Positions 11,228 through 24,325 of a stretch of DNA of 24,340 nt are shown in pieces (position 1 is the stretch's first letter; every line of letters starts with the position of its first letter). The notes under the pieces are model-generated. The model was not told where the DNA came from. It searched no databases and was given only the letters and a program-made list of their open reading frames with translations. The translations under genes were made by a program, and so were the position numbers. This DNA comes from a virus, in the IMG/VR virus record IMGVR_UViG_3300008050_000307, positions 1-24,340 of that record, one strand, 5' to 3'.

Positions 11228-11696
11228 TCTTGCTTTTTGAGCTACTGCCCTCTCCTATAAATTTAATCTCTTGTTCCGTTAGGTTTGGAAGTTCCAAGAT
11301 ATTTGTTGATTCTGGTAACTGTTCTCTTGCGTCGTCAATTATCGAACTAACGGTAACCACATTAACCTGTACTTGTTGTGCTTTTTCGAAGTTGTGCCAC
11401 CCAGGGACATCAGAGGTTTCCCTCATTATTGGCGATCTAGTGGCAAAGAATCTTGGGTCTTGCTCGGCTAGTGTAAGTTCTACTCTTGCACGCATTAAAA
11501 CCTTCGCACGTGTAATTGCCTCGCAAAACTCGTAAAACAATCCCTTAACCTCTTCCTTCCCTTTGTTAACCCACCTGTAATATGTAGCCGGGTTTATCCC
11601 CTCCACTTGGGCCGCAACCTCTGGAGTTACTCCAGTACTTATATGCCCAGCAATATTGTCTATTAAATCTCTACTTATCTTTGACGGTCTTGCCAT
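11193..11696 (-). CDS. terS: Terminase small subunit
   Basis: This 167-residue protein begins MARPSKISRDLIDNIAGHIS and contains a helix-turn-helix, about residues 18-45 (TPEVAAQVEGINPATYYRWV). This is the DNA-recognising form typical of terminase small subunits. A central helical oligomerisation region follows (ITRAKVLMRARVELTLAEQD), and the tail is basic and disordered (SSSKSKNGHENGRNGNS). It recognises the viral packaging site and stimulates the large subunit, which is encoded directly downstream with an overlapping start. Its own start overlaps the end of the ParB/methyltransferase gene by 26 bases. Confidence 0.85.
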   Translation of the reverse strand: MARPSKISRDLIDNIAGHISTGVTPEVAAQVEGINPATYYRWVNKGKEEVKGLFYEFCEAITRAKVLMRARVELTLAEQDPRFFATRSPIMRETSDVPGWHNFEKAQQVQVNVVTVSSIIDDAREQLPESTNILELPNLTEQEIKFIGEGSSSKSKNGHENGRNGNS

Positions 11697-12945
11697 TATA
11701 GTTCTTTATTAGTTTGGGTTCATTTCCAGTTAGGCGTTTATATCTTTCAATTGTTACTTGTGCAAACTTAGGATCTATCTCCATTCCTAAGCATTTTCTA
11801 TTCTTTTCCTCGCAAGCAATTAAGGTACTTCCAGACCCCATGAAAAGGTCTAGCACTATATCGCCAGCGTCTGTGCTATTGTCCATGAGTTGCTTAAGTA
11901 GGTTCACTGGCTTGGCGGCATTATGTTCACGGTCTGACCCTGACGCCCTCAATTCAGTTATGTGGTTAGGTTTGTGTACGGGTTTTTGTCCAGCTTTTCT
12001 TTGTCCCATCACTTTTTGGGGAGGCAGTTTACTCGCAAAGTAGACTAATTCATAAGTGTTTGTGTAATTAGCACCGAGACCGCCTCCACCTTTATACCAC
12101 ACAATAAGATTTTTGCTTACTATTTTTACCTGTTTAGACATTTCCCACCAACTTGGATATGACCTCCAATCGCAGAAAATATAGATGTGGCTATACATTG
12201 CGCAGACTTGTTCACATACTGATAAGACATCACGGAAGAAAGGTCTAACTATCTTGTCGTCAGTTATATCTGAACTTAATCCAGAGCTTGAACCATAGAT
12301 TGCATAGGGTGGGTCGGTAAGCACTAAGTCAACTGTTTCCTCGCCAGTTAATATAAGTACGTCGTCAACGTTAGTAGAATCGCCACAGAACAGTTTATGT
12401 TCGCCTAACCCCCATAGGTCGCCTTTCTTTACATAAACCTCATCTGGCGTTGTTGGAACATCTGGGATCAGTTCTGTTATACCTTTTTTAAGTATGGCAG
12501 TTTTTTCGTCTGCGCCGTATCTGTCTTGGACTTCATCAAGCAGTCCCTTAATTCTGGTATTGTCAAAACTGTTTGCGCTTATTAGCTCTGTAAGCTTTTG
12601 TTTGGATATATTGGCGTCACGTGTCCCTTCTGCCCCAGCAAAGGAGCTTAATGGGTCAAGTGTAGCGAGGACAATATCAGCCTCTTCAGGGCTTAAATCC
12701 AGGACTCCAACTGGGATGTCCTCTTCGTCGTTAGTTATTGACCAACGAGCTTCGCCGTCAATTAGTATATATTTACCGACTTTTTCTGCGTCTTTTATTA
12801 CAAGTACTTCGTCTACAAAGCCGACAGTATCAATAACTGCCCTCAGTTGCTTCAGTTGTTTTTTGTTATGATATCGCCAATTCTTACTATTAGGTTGGAT
12901 ATCTTTACGCTTCAACGTCACGTGTTCAGCAATCCGATTTTTCAT
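11671..12945 (-). CDS. ParB-like domain fused to DNA methyltransferase
   Basis: The 424-residue protein has an N-terminal ParB/sulfiredoxin-like domain (residues about 1-110; KDIQPNSKNWR, VLVIKD, IDGEARW at 62-68). A type II N6-adenine or N4-cytosine methyltransferase domain follows. DPPYAIYG at 201-208 is the catalytic motif, CGDS stands before it, and DIVLDLFMGSGSTLIACEE near residue 380 binds S-adenosylmethionine. No nuclease motif is present. Such fusions are common in phages next to terminase genes. No Shine-Dalgarno precedes the ATG; a promoter 20-48 bases upstream would give a very short leader. The likely role is protective methylation of phage DNA. Confidence 0.9.
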   Translation of the reverse strand: MKNRIAEHVTLKRKDIQPNSKNWRYHNKKQLKQLRAVIDTVGFVDEVLVIKDAEKVGKYILIDGEARWSITNDEEDIPVGVLDLSPEEADIVLATLDPLSSFAGAEGTRDANISKQKLTELISANSFDNTRIKGLLDEVQDRYGADEKTAILKKGITELIPDVPTTPDEVYVKKGDLWGLGEHKLFCGDSTNVDDVLILTGEETVDLVLTDPPYAIYGSSSGLSSDITDDKIVRPFFRDVLSVCEQVCAMYSHIYIFCDWRSYPSWWEMSKQVKIVSKNLIVWYKGGGGLGANYTNTYELVYFASKLPPQKVMGQRKAGQKPVHKPNHITELRASGSDREHNAAKPVNLLKQLMDNSTDAGDIVLDLFMGSGSTLIACEEKNRKCLGMEIDPKFAQVTIERYKRLTGNEPKLIKNYNGKTVKDK

Positions 12946-12965
12946 ATTTTAAGTGTAACAAAGTT

Positions 12966-12993
12966 TTTATATGGGTGTTTTTACTGACGCCAA
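12966..12993 (-). promoter_or_regulatory. Candidate sigma-70-type promoter for the packaging/structural operon
   Basis: On the minus strand TTGGCG (12993-12988) is followed after 16 bases by TATAAA (12971-12966). Transcription would begin near 12959, about 14 bases before the ATG of the ParB/methyltransferase gene. The first of the 11-bp iterons ends only 14 bases upstream of the -35 box. This would be an entry point for transcription of the leftward late genes. It is a match to consensus only. Confidence 0.4.
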
Positions 12994-13007
12994 GGCGGCA
13001 CCCTGAC

Positions 13008-13061
13008 GGGCTCAAAGCGGGCTCAAAGCGGGCTCAAAGCGGGCTCAAAGCGGGCTTGAAG
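13008..13061 (+). repeat. Four perfect 11-bp direct repeats plus a degenerate fifth
   Basis: The unit GGGCTCAAAGC occurs head to tail at 13008, 13019, 13030 and 13041. A partial fifth copy (GGGCTTGAAG) starts at 13052. The 11-bp period is close to one helical turn, so a protein bound to each copy would line up on one face of DNA. A further copy in the same orientation (AGGCTCAAAGCGGG) is near 13315. These could be initiator iterons, an operator for the adjacent promoter, or a terminase or ParB-domain binding site. Confidence 0.85.
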
Positions 13062-13062
13062 T

Positions 13063-13087
13063 CAGGGAAGATCAGGGGAAGATCAGG
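13063..13087 (+). repeat. Short direct repeat GAAGATCAGG
   Basis: Directly after the iterons, GGGAAGATCAGG is followed by GGGAAGATCAGG, giving two adjacent copies about 11 bases apart, each with a GATC. The GATC sites could be methylated by a Dam-type enzyme. Two copies are little evidence by themselves, but they extend the repeated array on the same spacing. Confidence 0.6.
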
Positions 13088-13134
13088 CGCCCGGGGCTCC
13101 CAGCGGCCCCCAGGGATCTTGCCGCAAAGCGCAG

Positions 13135-13414
13135 TTTTAGGTTCAATACTGGGCATTTTAGGTTTAACCCTTCCACTTTGCGACCTGTTTATTCCTCAAT
13201 TCTTGCCTGGTTTGCGCCCCTTCGTCGTCAATTTTCTGACGACAACACTGGTCTTTTTGACCACAGGGGACGTTCGCATGCAGAGCTAAAAGAACCTTTT
13301 TGAACCTAAAAACAGGCTCAAAGCGGGATAAAGCGGGTGGGAGTCTGTGCTGCCACTGCGCTGGAGTTGCCTGACGAGCTCAGTTTTTGAACCTAAAATA
13401 TCTTTATTTAGGTT
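13135..13414. repeat. Dispersed TTGAACCTAAA elements (both orientations)
   Basis: The element TTTTAGGTTCAA at 13135 is followed by TTTTAGGTTTAA at 13156. Inverse copies TTGAACCTAAAA are at about 13300 and 13387, and TTTAGGTT is at 13407. A further CTGAACCTAAAT lies at about 14286 outside this interval. The copies at 13390-13397 and 13407-13414 form a perfect 8-bp inverted pair. The repeated, two-orientation arrangement suggests binding sites for a phage protein. Confidence 0.6.
13224..13243. repeat. Inverted repeat GTCGTCA-N6-TGACGAC
   Basis: A perfect 7-bp inverted repeat with a six-base spacer lies between the iterons and the hairpin-rich stretch. A related 6-bp pair (TCGTCA-N7-TGACGA) occurs at 13454-13472. 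The two sites could be protein-binding dyads or hairpins. TGACGAC is also frequent in the coding parts of this genome, so the half-site by itself is not specific. Confidence 0.55.
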
Positions 13415-13910
13415 GGAATATGGATTCAAATCCCCAGCGAAATAGTGGGCAATTCGTCATAATATCTGACGACAAAGCGATCTGCTCACCTGGCAAAGCA
13501 ATTATCCCTGAGTTTGGTTTGGCGGCAGGATTCGGTGGAGGTCGGTTTACTTTGCGTTGCTGTTTCAACCGACCCTTCGAGGTAAGCATGAACCTCTACC
13601 GAATGGGGATTAACACCCATGATATAAGCCCCCGGTAGTCCACGAAAAACTGTATTGGTTTCCTTGGAGGCGTCCCACCGAGGGCAATTTAGATAAGCTG
13701 GGCAATTCTTCATATCGGGAACTAATGAGAAACCAAAATATGGCGACCTCTTTGAAGGCTAATTAAGACAATTTGTCCTTTTAGAGGATTTAGTCCCCGA
13801 ACCACCCAGCACTTTTATATTACCTATTTGCGTAATTATTGCAAATGACCTGTTCCTATTTTCACAGGTATGAATTGTGTTACACTCCAATAAGCAAATC
13901 TCCTAAACTT
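13387..13910. ncRNA. Putative structured RNA (candidate only)
   Basis: A chain of perfect stems runs through this stretch. It includes an 8-bp stem at 13390/13407 and a three-way junction closed by TCGGT (13532-13536) and ACCGA (13598-13602). The junction encloses GGTCGGTT/AACCGACC (13540-13547/13567-13574) and GAGGT/ACCTC (13579-13583/13592-13596). Further stems are ATGGG/CCCAT (13603-13620), TTGGTTTC/GAAACCAA (13655-13662/13729-13736), ACCTGT/ACAGGT (13848-13869) and ATTTGC/GCAAAT (13826-13846). One stem (CCTTGG/CCGAGG, 13662-13683) works on the plus strand with a G-U pair but not on the minus strand. No known RNA family is recognised; strand is uncertain. Confidence 0.35.
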
Positions 13911-13924
13911 TGCTAACATAAGAT

Positions 13925-13962
13925 AATGCCCTTGAACGATTGCTCGAACAAGGGCATTTTAG
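13925..13962. terminator. Ten-bp hairpin, possible terminator
   Basis: AATGCCCTTG (13925-13934) and CAAGGGCATT (13949-13958) form a perfect 10-bp stem with a 14-base loop. It lies just downstream of the stop of the 48-residue gene on the minus strand, where a terminator would be expected. The short T-run (ATTTT), however, is on the plus side. It may act weakly in either direction, or be the 3' hairpin of a plus-strand RNA. Confidence 0.45.
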
Positions 13963-13975
13963 GTGAAGGGAGTTT

Positions 13976-14122
13976 TTATATAGGCAAGTCGTTTGGTTTT
14001 TGGTTTTTGTTCCTTGCCATTCGAATCGGTCGCAGTGGTTTTACTGGGGTTAACAATCTCTTGGGGTAAATTTCTTTAACCATTCGGATTGCTTCCCGAA
14101 TATCTTCTCTCTTATGTGTCAT
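13976..14122 (-). CDS. Small basic protein, unknown
   Basis: A 48-residue open frame starts at an ATG at 14122 with a near-perfect Shine-Dalgarno (AAAGGAGG, then four bases, then ATG) and ends with TAA at 13976. The product begins MTHKREDIREAIRMVKEIYP, which reads as an amphipathic basic helix, and continues with a proline- and arginine-rich tail (LLTPVKPLRPIRMARNKNQK). Net charge is strongly positive, so it may bind nucleic acid. I recognise no family. It stands alone between a candidate promoter and a hairpin, so it may be an independent transcription unit such as a small regulator of the neighbouring origin or late promoter. Confidence 0.65.
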   Translation of the reverse strand: MTHKREDIREAIRMVKEIYPKRLLTPVKPLRPIRMARNKNQKPNDLPI

Positions 14123-14142: not shown

Positions 14143-14171
14143 AACATAAAGCTTCTGGGTTTTTGTTACAA
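14143..14171 (-). promoter_or_regulatory. Candidate promoter for the 48-residue gene
   Basis: Minus-strand TTGTAA (14171-14166) and TATGTT (14148-14143) are separated by exactly 17 bases. The inferred start near 14137 leaves a leader of about 15 bases that contains the AAAGGAGG. Each box matches consensus at four of six positions, so this is only a candidate. Confidence 0.35.
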
Positions 14172-14254: not shown

Positions 14255-14360
14255 GTGTGTCGAGGGTAGTTTGATACCCTACTTTCTGAACCTAAATACA
14301 GAACGCTAATATTCTCAATTCATGCAATTTAAACTGTCCTCCGAATTGTTTGATACATTC

Positions 14361-14930
14361 TCAAAGTTTTTCCTTAGTGTCCTTCCATTGAAGTATGCTA
14401 TAAACAGTTAACTTGTCCCAGTTGTCACTCCAGCGTGCGCCTTCCCAAACATGGACGCTGATCCAGTCACTTGTTGAATCCTCGGCGAAACATGGGCCAT
14501 ACCAGCGAATTTGCTTGTCGTCGTCATAAACAAGTCCGTTCATAATATCCTCAACACCCTTGATTAAGTTAGACATATCCCAGTCCATTATGCCTTTTAC
14601 TTGTCTGCCATCAACTTTGCCCTTCTTTGTGCGCTTGGCGTTTGGCGGCGCCTGACGTTTTGCCCCAAAACCAAATGCTATTCCTAATTGCATATCTTTA
14701 CCGAACACGGGCAGTTCTTTGTAATGGGCCAGGAGAGCAGATGTTAATATTTCTTTAACTTGTAATGCCCAGTTTCTATATTCACGAACCCTAGGATTAA
14801 CAAACCTGGTTTTTTGGGTTTCACGAGGCTTTGGTCTAGGACGTATGCGAAAGTTCAAACGCAAATGTTTATTCGGTATGTTTCTTATTACCTGAATTTC
14901 ATTTGGTTTTAGATTTTCTATGTTTACCAT
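14361..14930 (-). CDS. RusA-like Holliday junction resolvase
   Basis: The 189-residue protein carries the RusA-family pattern. An N-terminal strand ends in proline-arginine repeats (FRIRPRPKPRE). The catalytic acidic region is DWDMSNLIKGVEDIMNGLVY (Asp116, Asp118, Asp128), followed by DDDKQIRW with further acidic residues. RusA enzymes are dimeric, metal-dependent endonucleases that cut four-way DNA junctions formed in recombination and late replication, and they debranch DNA before packaging. It overlaps the preceding methyltransferase gene by 7 bases and is the last gene of the early block before the intergenic region. N-terminal residues 1-20 are longer than in the short bacterial form. 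Confidence 0.88.
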   Translation of the reverse strand: MVNIENLKPNEIQVIRNIPNKHLRLNFRIRPRPKPRETQKTRFVNPRVREYRNWALQVKEILTSALLAHYKELPVFGKDMQLGIAFGFGAKRQAPPNAKRTKKGKVDGRQVKGIMDWDMSNLIKGVEDIMNGLVYDDDKQIRWYGPCFAEDSTSDWISVHVWEGARWSDNWDKLTVYSILQWKDTKEKL

Positions 14931-22030: not shown

Positions 22031-22203
22031 TTTACCTCCTTTCTTATGCTAATTTTTTTATTAATTAAAATGTCACACCTTAAGCATTCAAACTTGTGAA
22101 TGTATAGTTTGAAATCAATTACCACGCCAAGCATATTTACGGTGTTGTGACAATTAGGGCAGACTGCCTTAATGTCTAAATATTCGTGGGTTCTACTTTC
22201 CAT
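22027..22203 (-). CDS. Small zinc-ribbon protein
   Basis: I choose the ATG at 22203, preceded by GAGG and seven bases, over the in-frame ATG at 22266 that lies inside the cyclotransferase gene. The 58-residue product begins MESRTHEYLDIKAVCPNCHN. It has two CxxC pairs, C15/C18 and C40/C43 (CPNC and CLRC), separated by beta-type sequence, which is a classic zinc ribbon, and ends with a basic tail (INKKISIRKEVK). It overlaps the GGCT-like gene by 11 bases. Function unknown. Confidence 0.75.
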   Translation of the reverse strand: MESRTHEYLDIKAVCPNCHNTVNMLGVVIDFKLYIHKFECLRCDILINKKISIRKEVK

Positions 22204-22732
22204 AGTTTTTCCTCTTCCAAGCCAAGGGTGTATGCACCCTCCCGTTGCTTGTTTTATATGACCCAAGCAATGCGTCTGTCAGCGACTTGTTTGGCAAATT
22301 CCAGTGGTGGTAGCCACTAAGGATTGTTTCATAGTAGCCAACGCTTGGTGGTTCTGTTCCGTCGTAGTCCGAGGTCATGGTGTAAAACATGAACCTTTCC
22401 TCGATACCGTCAAGAACGAACTTGCCGAACGCCTTTTTGTAAAGCGAAGGGTAGCCTTCGTAGACGTCTAATCTGTCCTCGTCACTTTCTGTAATTTTGT
22501 ATATTGACCCTTGCACCACTTGACCCTTAGATTCCGTAACGTCGGCGACGCCCCTAAATACAAGCGCCCAATCGTGTAATGTAAACGCACCGATTGGCTT
22601 ACTGTCCTTGCACCTATCTGCCATTTGTTGAATGTGTAGGTTGCTCCCATATGCAAAGTAGAATGGGGTGGTATGAAAGTCGGCGTCCCTGTTTTTTTTG
22701 TAGTCGTCGAAATTGAAATGCTGAATACTCAT
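22193..22732 (-). CDS. Gamma-glutamylcyclotransferase-fold protein
   Basis: The 179-residue protein has the family signature: FAYGSN (Y28-N31) forms the substrate-binding turn, and DVYEGYP contains the glutamate (E92) that acts as general base in this fold. A VQGSIYKIT strand precedes it. Members cyclise gamma-glutamyl groups from peptides or amines to 5-oxoproline, or act on other isopeptide substrates. The N-terminus has about 20 extra residues. The gene begins on TAATG with the 103-residue gene and lies two genes downstream of an amidoligase. This pairing suggests making and breaking of amide links, though the substrate is unknown. Confidence 0.85.
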   Translation of the reverse strand: MSIQHFNFDDYKKNRDADFHTTPFYFAYGSNLHIQQMADRCKDSKPIGAFTLHDWALVFRGVADVTESKGQVVQGSIYKITESDEDRLDVYEGYPSLYKKAFGKFVLDGIEERFMFYTMTSDYDGTEPPSVGYYETILSGYHHWNLPNKSLTDALLGSYKTSNGRVHTPLAWKRKNYGK

Positions 22733-23043: not shown

Positions 23044-23282
23044 TAGTTGACCCTTTCGTCATGCTTTTCTATAAGTTGTAGAATCTGTGTAGCCATTATT
23101 CTGATTTGGCTAAATTCTGTGGGTTGTGGTCTTTCAACCGTGATGTTGCAACTGTCACAGTTCAATTGGTACATGTAACTGCTTGCTCGCTTACCGTCGG
23201 TGTAAGTCGACCCCTTTGCCGTGGCGTTCTTTTTACACCACGGACACCAAATGTTGAATAGAACCTCGCTTATTTTTTTCAT
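23043..23282 (-). CDS. Zinc-ribbon protein of the amidoligase group
   Basis: The 79-residue product has two CxxC pairs, C13/C16 (WCPWCKK) and C42/C45 (CDSCN), about 25 residues apart. These are typical of phage zinc-ribbon proteins related to restriction-alleviation (Lar-like) proteins. Its helical C-terminus reads FSQIRIMATQILQLIEKHDE. It overlaps the amidoligase stop and the next gene start by TAATG on both sides. The Lar similarity (CPWC ... CxxC) is a pattern resemblance only. Confidence 0.75.
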   Translation of the reverse strand: MKKISEVLFNIWCPWCKKNATAKGSTYTDGKRASSYMYQLNCDSCNITVERPQPTEFSQIRIMATQILQLIEKHDERVN

Positions 23283-24325
23283 TAGTCTGCTCTCCTATTC
23301 TGTGCGTATCGTTGTCGGCGTCTAGCGTTTCGCCTCGCCCTAGCGTCGTTCTGTTCTAGTTCCTTTTTTCTGCCCTTTGCCCAATCCTGTACCTTTTTGT
23401 CGGCGTCAAGCCATGCAGTCAATCTTCTGAAATTCCCCTTGGCTTCACAGTTCCTGTCGCTTGTTGGTTTTTTGAAAGCGACTTGCGTTCGACTCATTCT
23501 GTACATGTAGTCGAGGAACGTTAACCACCCGACTGCTTTCTCCTTATTCAATGTTCCCCCGAACTGTCTAACTTCTATGGTCTTGTGACTGTTGTGGTGT
23601 AGGCTTGAAAGGTTCAACTTTAGGTATCGTGTATTAGACACGTATGAAAGTTGATTCAACGCTTCCCGTCTAGTCAATCCCCGAAGGTCGATGTTTTCCA
23701 AAACTTCCATTGCTTGCTTTACCAATTCGGCGCTTGTGCTTGCGTCCCTAGTAGAAGTCCCAGCGTAGTTCCTAACATTCGAACTGCAGTAACCGTTCTT
23801 GCTTAACCTTCGGCTTGGTGGCACTAATAAATCAATGGCACTCTCTGACCTTAGATAGTTAAGGGCAAACTTTCTTATGTTTTCCACAGGGACGCCTTCT
23901 GTTCCGAGGTGTATGTGTGTCCCACACTGCTTGGTAACTTTGAGGATATTTTCCTCTTGCATTACTTCGGCTATTTCATAAACCCTTTGGAATTTTTCTA
24001 AGCCTTGCATACCCGATAAAATCGGCGACACAATTTCGACACTTTCCATGTATCGACCACTGCCCCATACCGAAGCGTCGCTGACAATTTTCCATGGCGC
24101 CTCGTTTCCGTCGTGGTTTCTGTGGTTGTAACCTTCACTGGCGATGTTCAAAGTTTCGTTGAACCTTTCGTAGTATTTAAGTTTTAGAAGGTCTGCAGTT
24201 TCCTGTCTGGACACTGCTGATAGACACTCGATCTCAACTCCGAATGTGTAACTGAATGGGTCGATCTGAGAAAGTTTCTTAATTCTTTGCTCTAATCTTT
24301 CCTGTTTTTCGTTTCGTCTTGGCAC
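23282..24325 (-). CDS. Amidoligase (COOH-NH2 ligase, glutamine-synthetase-like fold)
   Basis: The 347-residue enzyme begins with a GTG at 24325 preceded by AAAGGAG. It has the amidoligase family signature: FGVEIE (28-33), VEIVSPIL (96-103), CGTHIHLG (134-141) and TIEVRQFGGTLN (249-260). The Glu, His and Arg residues in these motifs bind ATP and metal in the glutamine-synthetase-like fold. The C-terminus is highly basic (RARRNARRRQRYAQ). The family forms amide bonds between carboxylate and amine groups, and is often encoded with cyclotransferases and glutamine amidotransferases in phages. The substrate is not known. It heads a tightly overlapping group of genes. Confidence 0.9.
   Translation of the reverse strand: MPRRNEKQERLEQRIKKLSQIDPFSYTFGVEIECLSAVSRQETADLLKLKYYERFNETLNIASEGYNHRNHDGNEAPWKIVSDASVWGSGRYMESVEIVSPILSGMQGLEKFQRVYEIAEVMQEENILKVTKQCGTHIHLGTEGVPVENIRKFALNYLRSESAIDLLVPPSRRLSKNGYCSSNVRNYAGTSTRDASTSAELVKQAMEVLENIDLRGLTRREALNQLSYVSNTRYLKLNLSSLHHNSHKTIEVRQFGGTLNKEKAVGWLTFLDYMYRMSRTQVAFKKPTSDRNCEAKGNFRRLTAWLDADKKVQDWAKGRKKELEQNDARARRNARRRQRYAQNRRAD

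Follow-up and report, generated by a model that had tools for sequence, protein, structure and literature searches.

A very probable minus-strand structured RNA at the early/late junction of an uncultured phage and its candidate antisense hairpin

The gap and its features

The window analyzed here, 24,340 bases long, is the whole viral contig of an uncultured phage (IMG/VR record IMGVR_UViG_3300008050_000307); the contig is partial. Its predicted genes lie on the minus strand and include a head-and-packaging module with portal, protease and major head protein, and terminase. A gap of 1.4 kb extends from a RusA-like resolvase gene (14361-14930) to a ParB-like/DNA methyltransferase gene (11671-12945), which is followed by two terminase genes. 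We report that this gap very probably encodes a structured noncoding RNA on the minus strand, and we propose that its core hairpin, P6, may act as an antisense RNA. The closest terminases of annotated phages are ~30% identical to that of the window; alignment of the terminase against genome contigs gave no relative.

Of the contigs found, only L002 (with its duplicates L009, L010 and L016) spans the gap at a divergence that still permits alignment. It is partial, like that of the window, and its methyltransferase is 89% identical. Contigs L006 and L007 belong to more distant phages, with 62% terminase identity. DNA similarity searches with the gap or the RNA against phage and plasmid collections returned short chance matches only. 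With degenerate DNA patterns, three run over viral contigs and one over genome contigs, the L002 contig was the only real match, the rest being unrelated sequence. Two covariance models, R1 and R2, matched only the window and L002 over up to 98 fetched loci. Protein relatives selected by methyltransferase or terminase (30-47% identity) gave no such RNA by R1 or R2 in those searched, and the pattern CCTCCAAG...GTTTTTC was absent from them.

The features of the gap are collected in Table 1. The promoter-like site ahead of the small open reading frame (ORF) scores below the consensus threshold of the tool. The small-ORF protein is 47% identical in amino acids to its L002 counterpart (isoelectric point, pI, 10.5), shares with it the ending LPI*, and has no match in Pfam. 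An original prediction, made from the sequence by itself, had described the segment 13387-13910 as free of genes; this holds for the segment proper, with the conserved ORF just outside it. Hairpin P0 is not followed by a U tract on the minus strand.

At the other end of the gap, a -10-like hexamer stands 6 nt before the ParB-like gene in all four phages (TACACT, TACACT, TAGACT and TAGAAT). The gene has no Shine-Dalgarno (SD) sequence; the regions concerned are 12945-12960 in the window, 5206-5223 in L002, 4397-4414 in L007 and 2305-2343 in L006. Read from the sequence, this arrangement, conserved across the four phages, points to a promoter of the gene's own and to an mRNA without a leader. 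It makes a discrete RNA, or the 3' end of a small-ORF transcript, likelier than a leader of the late operon. Antisense pairing over 10 complementary nucleotides of the P2b region and TGTTACACTT, which stands ahead of the methyltransferase ATG, was considered and set aside, since the latter site is better read as the -10-like element with conserved spacing in the four phages.

Table 1. Positions of the features at the locus and in the distant relatives (window coordinates unless a contig is named)
Feature	Position	Strand	Remark
Promoter-like TTGTAA-17-TATGTT upstream of small ORF	14143-14171	minus	Hexamers and spacing identical in L002, spacer diverged
Small ORF, 48 amino acids, basic (pI 11.0), SD GGAGG	13976-14122	minus	48-codon counterpart in L002
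Hairpin P0, AATGCCCTTG/CAAGGGCATT, 10 bp	13925-13958	minus	Stem identical, loop diverged in L002
RNA domain P1-P2-P2b-P3 (UUAGCA/UGCUGG, UUGCUUAUU/AAUAGGUAA, GUGUAA/UUACGC, ACCUGU/ACAGGU)	13806-13916	minus	90% identical to L002
Variable helix P5, ~110 nt in window, nearly absent in L002	13697-13811	minus	Alignment gap and folds
Core hairpin P6 (outer stem of 11 bp, CCUCCAAG within an internal loop, inner stem rich in A/U)	13628-13685	minus	90% identical to L002
Invariant CCTCCAAG of P6, proposed seed	13663-13670	minus	In all four phages
Three-way junction of the original prediction (diverged 3' helix on minus strand)	13532-13602		Forms in silico on either strand
Extended -10-like TGTTACACT before ParB-methyltransferase gene	12952-12960	minus	Last base 6 nt before ATG
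Structural counterparts of P6	L006 2205-2262; L007 4266-4324		Between small ORF and ParB-like gene
Genes with CTTGGAGG as SD	L006 395, 9648, 10456, 30580; L007 4280, 21074

Conservation, covariation and strand

Sequence comparison of the window with L002 provides evidence for an RNA. Two blocks of the gap, 105 nt and 62 nt long, are 90% identical between the two phages, and most of the gap has diverged; the third codon positions of the methyltransferase and terminase genes are 60% and 57% identical in the same comparison. Neither block is coding. The 105-nt block carries single-base insertions or deletions relative to L002. An apparent ORF of 75 amino acids through P6 was rejected, because the six codons that change in this frame are all altered non-synonymously and none of them at the third position.

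The consensus fold of the minus strand comprises helices P0, P1, P2, P2b, P3 and P6. Seven of the eight altered pairs still pair, among them double substitutions in P2 (U-A to G-C) and P6 (G-C to A-U). The P1-P2-P2b-P3 domain (alifold z -3.13) contains one double compensatory change, that in P2, along with three single changes that keep the pair and one terminal mismatch. P6 contains one compensatory and two pair-keeping changes, and an inner stem added to it (GGAAAC/GUUUUU, in L002 GAGAAC/GUUUUU) pairs through two further changes. When the helix partners were slid against each other, the paired cells fell from 99% to 35-45%. Against column-shuffled alignments, the consensus fold of the core reached z -7.94 on the minus strand (0/200) and -4.57 on the plus strand; for P6 alone the values were -5.81 (0/300) and -0.71, respectively. 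The L002 sequence by itself folds at z -4.26. The G-U wobbles and the exchanges between G-U and A-U in P1, P2, P2b and P6 pair on the minus strand only. These pairings and the strand-specific fold signal of P6 argue that the functional strand is most likely minus. Conserved noncoding sequence, changes that preserve pairs and the use of one strand together mark the product of the gap as a structured noncoding RNA, and the compensatory changes that the original prediction asked for in homologues are present, in the minus-strand fold.

The RNA that emerges shares its general nature with the original prediction and differs from it in strand, fold and core. That prediction saw a dense array of perfect hairpins, including a three-way junction, on plus-strand RNA. 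The stretch 13387-13910 does contain seven perfect Watson-Crick stems that are 5 bp or longer and do not overlap, but the array is not dense by the measure of dinucleotide shuffles, for which 6.0 plus-strand stems are expected and 80 of 200 reach the seven. With G-U pairs allowed, the plus strand has 12 stems versus 13.0 in the shuffles, and the minus strand 17 versus 13.2, a number reached by 1/200. The stems of 8 and 5 bp of the junction are present, but the junction is not conserved in L002, which has a different stem of 10 bp at this position, so it is without comparative support. Among the predicted hairpins, that at 13848-13869 (P3) is the only one kept in L002; that at 13826-13846 is broken. 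The argument for the plus strand consisted of one G-U pair in the unconserved junction, whereas the conserved evidence favors the minus strand. Folding of the whole stretch against shuffles gave z -3.88 for the minus strand (0/100) and -2.41 for the plus strand (2/100). In a contig-wide scan its best minus-strand segment ranks 4/162, in the upper tail and not unique; folding energy alone is insufficient for the case, because several other segments of the contig score similarly.

P6 in distant relatives and its complementarity to start sites

Structural counterparts of P6 occur in L006 and L007 in the same slot, preceded by a small ORF and followed by the ParB-like gene. Their outer stems are entirely different in sequence and fully complementary, the inner stem is present, and CCUCCAAG is invariant at the same position of the loop. 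In each of the four phages P6 consists of one hairpin. GUUUUUC is shared by L007 and the window, and the 14-mer CCTCCAAGACTGTT by L006 and L007; among the fetched loci, no further phage had these combinations. Shuffled gap sequences yielded a P6-like element in 20/40,000 and 4/100,000 cases, and folding of the complete L006 gap gives z -6.05. A terminator-like hairpin lies within ~10 nt after P6 in L006 (AACCACCTGCTTCGGCAGGTGGTTATTTTATTT) and L007 (ACTCCC...GGGGAGTTTTTATTTT). A second hairpin is common to L006 (1856-1924) and L007 (2945-3000), with TTTCTCTGGCGAGAA at its apex and different outer stems; it is absent from the window.

The exact complement of the invariant 8-mer, CTTGGAGG, occurs on the sense strand four times in the L006 contig and twice in that of L007, and each occurrence is an SD sequence. 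At these sites the SD sits in the hairpin loop C-UUGGAG-G, closed by covarying stems (GUAC/GUAC, UGAC/GUCA, AGAC/GUCU and AGUC/GGCU), and promoter-like sequence, read by eye, lies directly 5' of them. At L007 site 4280 the complementarity to P6 reaches 11 bases. As control, predicted duplex energies over all translation starts were compared with those of flank-shuffled seeds that retain CCUCC. The mean of the top four predicted pairings was reached by 3/300 shuffled seeds in L006 and by 1/300 in L007. The strongest predicted site in the window, with 7 bp (GGAGGCG with CGCCUCC), is the small ORF's own SD next to the RNA. An SD hairpin of the portal gene in the window and L002 (TACTGGAGGTA) was not counted, as it lies within conserved C-terminal codons of the terminase. 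The mini-hairpin NNNC-UUGGAG-GNNN over an SD is seen at genes L096 395, 9648 and 10456 and L178 181 (G001), and at L179 181 and L097 14350 (G002); with GGA in a loop that overlaps the SD, its sequence resembles a CsrA-type operator.

Interpretation and comparison with known RNAs

We propose a minus-strand phage noncoding RNA made up of the P1-P3 arm, the length-variable helix P5 and the core hairpin P6. A small early ORF precedes it, and the probable leaderless promoter of the ParB-like/terminase operon comes after it. From this position the RNA would most likely form the 3' portion of the transcript that starts with the small ORF; the hairpin directly behind P6 in L006 and L007 resembles an intrinsic terminator. 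P6, at the early/late boundary, would be an antisense RNA working in trans. The invariant CCUCCAAG would pair with SD sequences CUUGGAGG, which in L006 and L007 are held in small hairpin loops (C-UUGGAG-G), and the pairing would block or delay the translation of a set of phage genes. A structured RNA with a trans-acting antisense P6 is the best explanation that we have, with a probability of about 0.4, and the chain of transcription, processing, contact and repression that it implies is put forward tentatively. The antisense model is supported in L006 and L007, and for the phage of the window we can only infer the same mechanism. It is rather doubtful that P6 represents a new class of antisense RNA, in which a long hairpin with its seed in an internal loop would coordinate a regulon through the shared SD hairpin C-UUGGAG-G; doubtful, too, is the corresponding picture of a phage that carries a dedicated RNA repressor together with matching, covarying operator hairpins.

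Several observations weigh against this interpretation. The covariation of the P1-P3 domain comes from two sequences only, and with two sequences a helix-shuffle control was uninformative (119/500). The homology of P6 in L006 and L007 amounts to a match of 8-14 nt with architecture and synteny; the covariance model did not place these hairpins above noise, and MAFFT misaligned L006 and L007 among the four P6 hairpins, so that its alignment was not used for counting pairs. In the window and L002, pairing to translation starts was no better than that of the flank-shuffled seeds (280/300 and 283/300), both contigs being partial. Because CCUCC is the anti-SD core, a degree of complementarity to phage SDs is to be expected in any case, and the kinship of L006 with L007 means that the CTTGGAGG sites of the two are not fully independent. 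The large internal loop of P6, moreover, is nearly invariant, with two changes in ~36 nt between the window and L002. This invariance, and window targets that do not exceed chance, would suit a structured RNA with a different role, for example as scaffold or sponge for a protein or as a ligand sensor, with an SD complementarity incidental to CCUCC. We regard such a function as unlikely, for only one strand of the loop, CCUCCAAG, is constant across lineages, as fits a pairing seed and not a two-sided pocket, and the complementarity in L006 and L007 exceeds the controls.

The RNA might instead act in cis at the early/late junction, for instance as a put- or nut-like antiterminator or as an attenuator, and, possibly partnered by the basic 48-residue peptide, decide whether transcription from the small ORF continues into the late operon. 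Its location at the early/late junction of all four phages, the terminator-like hairpin within ~10 nt of P6 in L006 and L007, and the basic small-ORF product in the window and L002 are consistent with this. But the ParB-like gene seemingly has its own promoter, leaderless and without an SD in the four phages, and the benefit of read-through is not obvious. In the window and L002, P6 has no clear terminator behind it; the small proteins encoded ahead of it in L006 and L007 look, by eye, unrelated and not strongly basic; and the CTTGGAGG start sites would be left unexplained. We regard a cis-acting element, too, as unlikely. A DNA-level element (a replication origin, a cluster of operators or a packaging site), conserved for reasons other than RNA, is already disfavored and has only a slight chance of being correct. 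The adjoining diverged stretch 12990-13410 does hold repeats of TGAACCTAAA and a perfect palindrome that L002 has retained, yet these motifs are concentrated outside the RNA blocks, and within the blocks the changes keep pairing, including G-U pairs that only an RNA copy of one strand can form, and P6 gives its signal on one strand. Chance hairpins, or a plus-strand RNA of the GOLLD or ROOL type with which the original prediction compared it, could draw on the plus-strand fold (z -2.41); as stated, both are already refuted by a stem count at the level of chance, the unconserved junction, the absence of an Rfam match and of a tRNA, and, for chance, by the minus-strand conservation.

Comparison with known RNAs sets the family apart. 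Rfam, to which the original prediction had pointed as a check, gave no family match at the gathering threshold or at E up to 10, and no tRNA was found in the window. GOLLD and ROOL RNAs are several hundred nucleotides or more in length (ROOL env-120 has 659 nt and many GOLLD exceed 800 nt) and often lie near tRNA islands (PMC12286853). The RNA of the gap is likewise phage-encoded and structured, with conserved and variable parts, but its conserved core is ~290 nt in the window and shorter in L002. It has neither the Rfam model match of GOLLD or ROOL nor the size and tRNA-island location of GOLLD, and from the lack of an Rfam match we conclude that it is neither. The put RNA of HK022 has ~70 nt and two stem-loops and lies downstream of an early promoter (PMC9378689). 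The likeness is limited to a compact structured phage RNA element within a transcription unit; here a single core hairpin lies at the early/late junction, and the promoter-like site is upstream of the small ORF, so the architecture is not that of an HK022-type put.

Bacteria and phages make trans-acting antisense small RNAs with a C-rich seed against SD sequences. P6 resembles them in its short invariant seed against the SDs of several genes and in the terminator-like hairpin that follows it in L006 and L007. It differs in that the seed lies in the internal loop of a long hairpin, the targets are genes of the phage itself with SDs in small hairpins, and no target was found in the window's own contig. 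The string GUGGGACGC...CCUCC has no more than a superficial resemblance to the c-di-GMP-I (GEMM-I) riboswitch. This family gave no Rfam match at E up to 10, and CCUCCAAG is common to L006 and L007 while GGGACGC is not. The RNA is thus a new family of a known general kind, with four members and absent from Rfam, a gain that stands even without the antisense step; its antisense function is proposed with moderate confidence. Few structured RNAs of uncultured phages have a proposed function, and here the proposal makes a testable prediction, with a seed of 8 nt, candidate targets among the genes of two relatives, and a hairpin resembling an operator that these genes share. If true, a phage-encoded RNA would control several phage genes at once, through target sites recognizable from sequence alone.

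The diverged part of the gap has motifs of its own. TGAACCTAAA is present in four exact copies (12990-13410 and 14287-14296), with none exact elsewhere on the contig, and recurs at L010 6931-7189; each phage has a pair of copies spaced by 21 bp in the same orientation, and in the window one of the pair carries a mismatch. The repeats are probably bound by a regulator or a protein of replication. The perfect palindrome GTCGTCA-N6-TGACGAC (window 13224-13243, L010 6998-7017) is operator-like, with conserved arms and a changed spacer in L002, and a second, imperfect copy lies at 13454-13472. A tandem 11-bp repeat, AGCGGGCTCAA, runs for ~5 copies at 13007-13061 of the window and is absent from the aligned part of L002. 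Elsewhere on the phage contig are genes for a gamma-glutamyl cyclotransferase-like protein (22193-22732) and an amidoligase (23282-24325).
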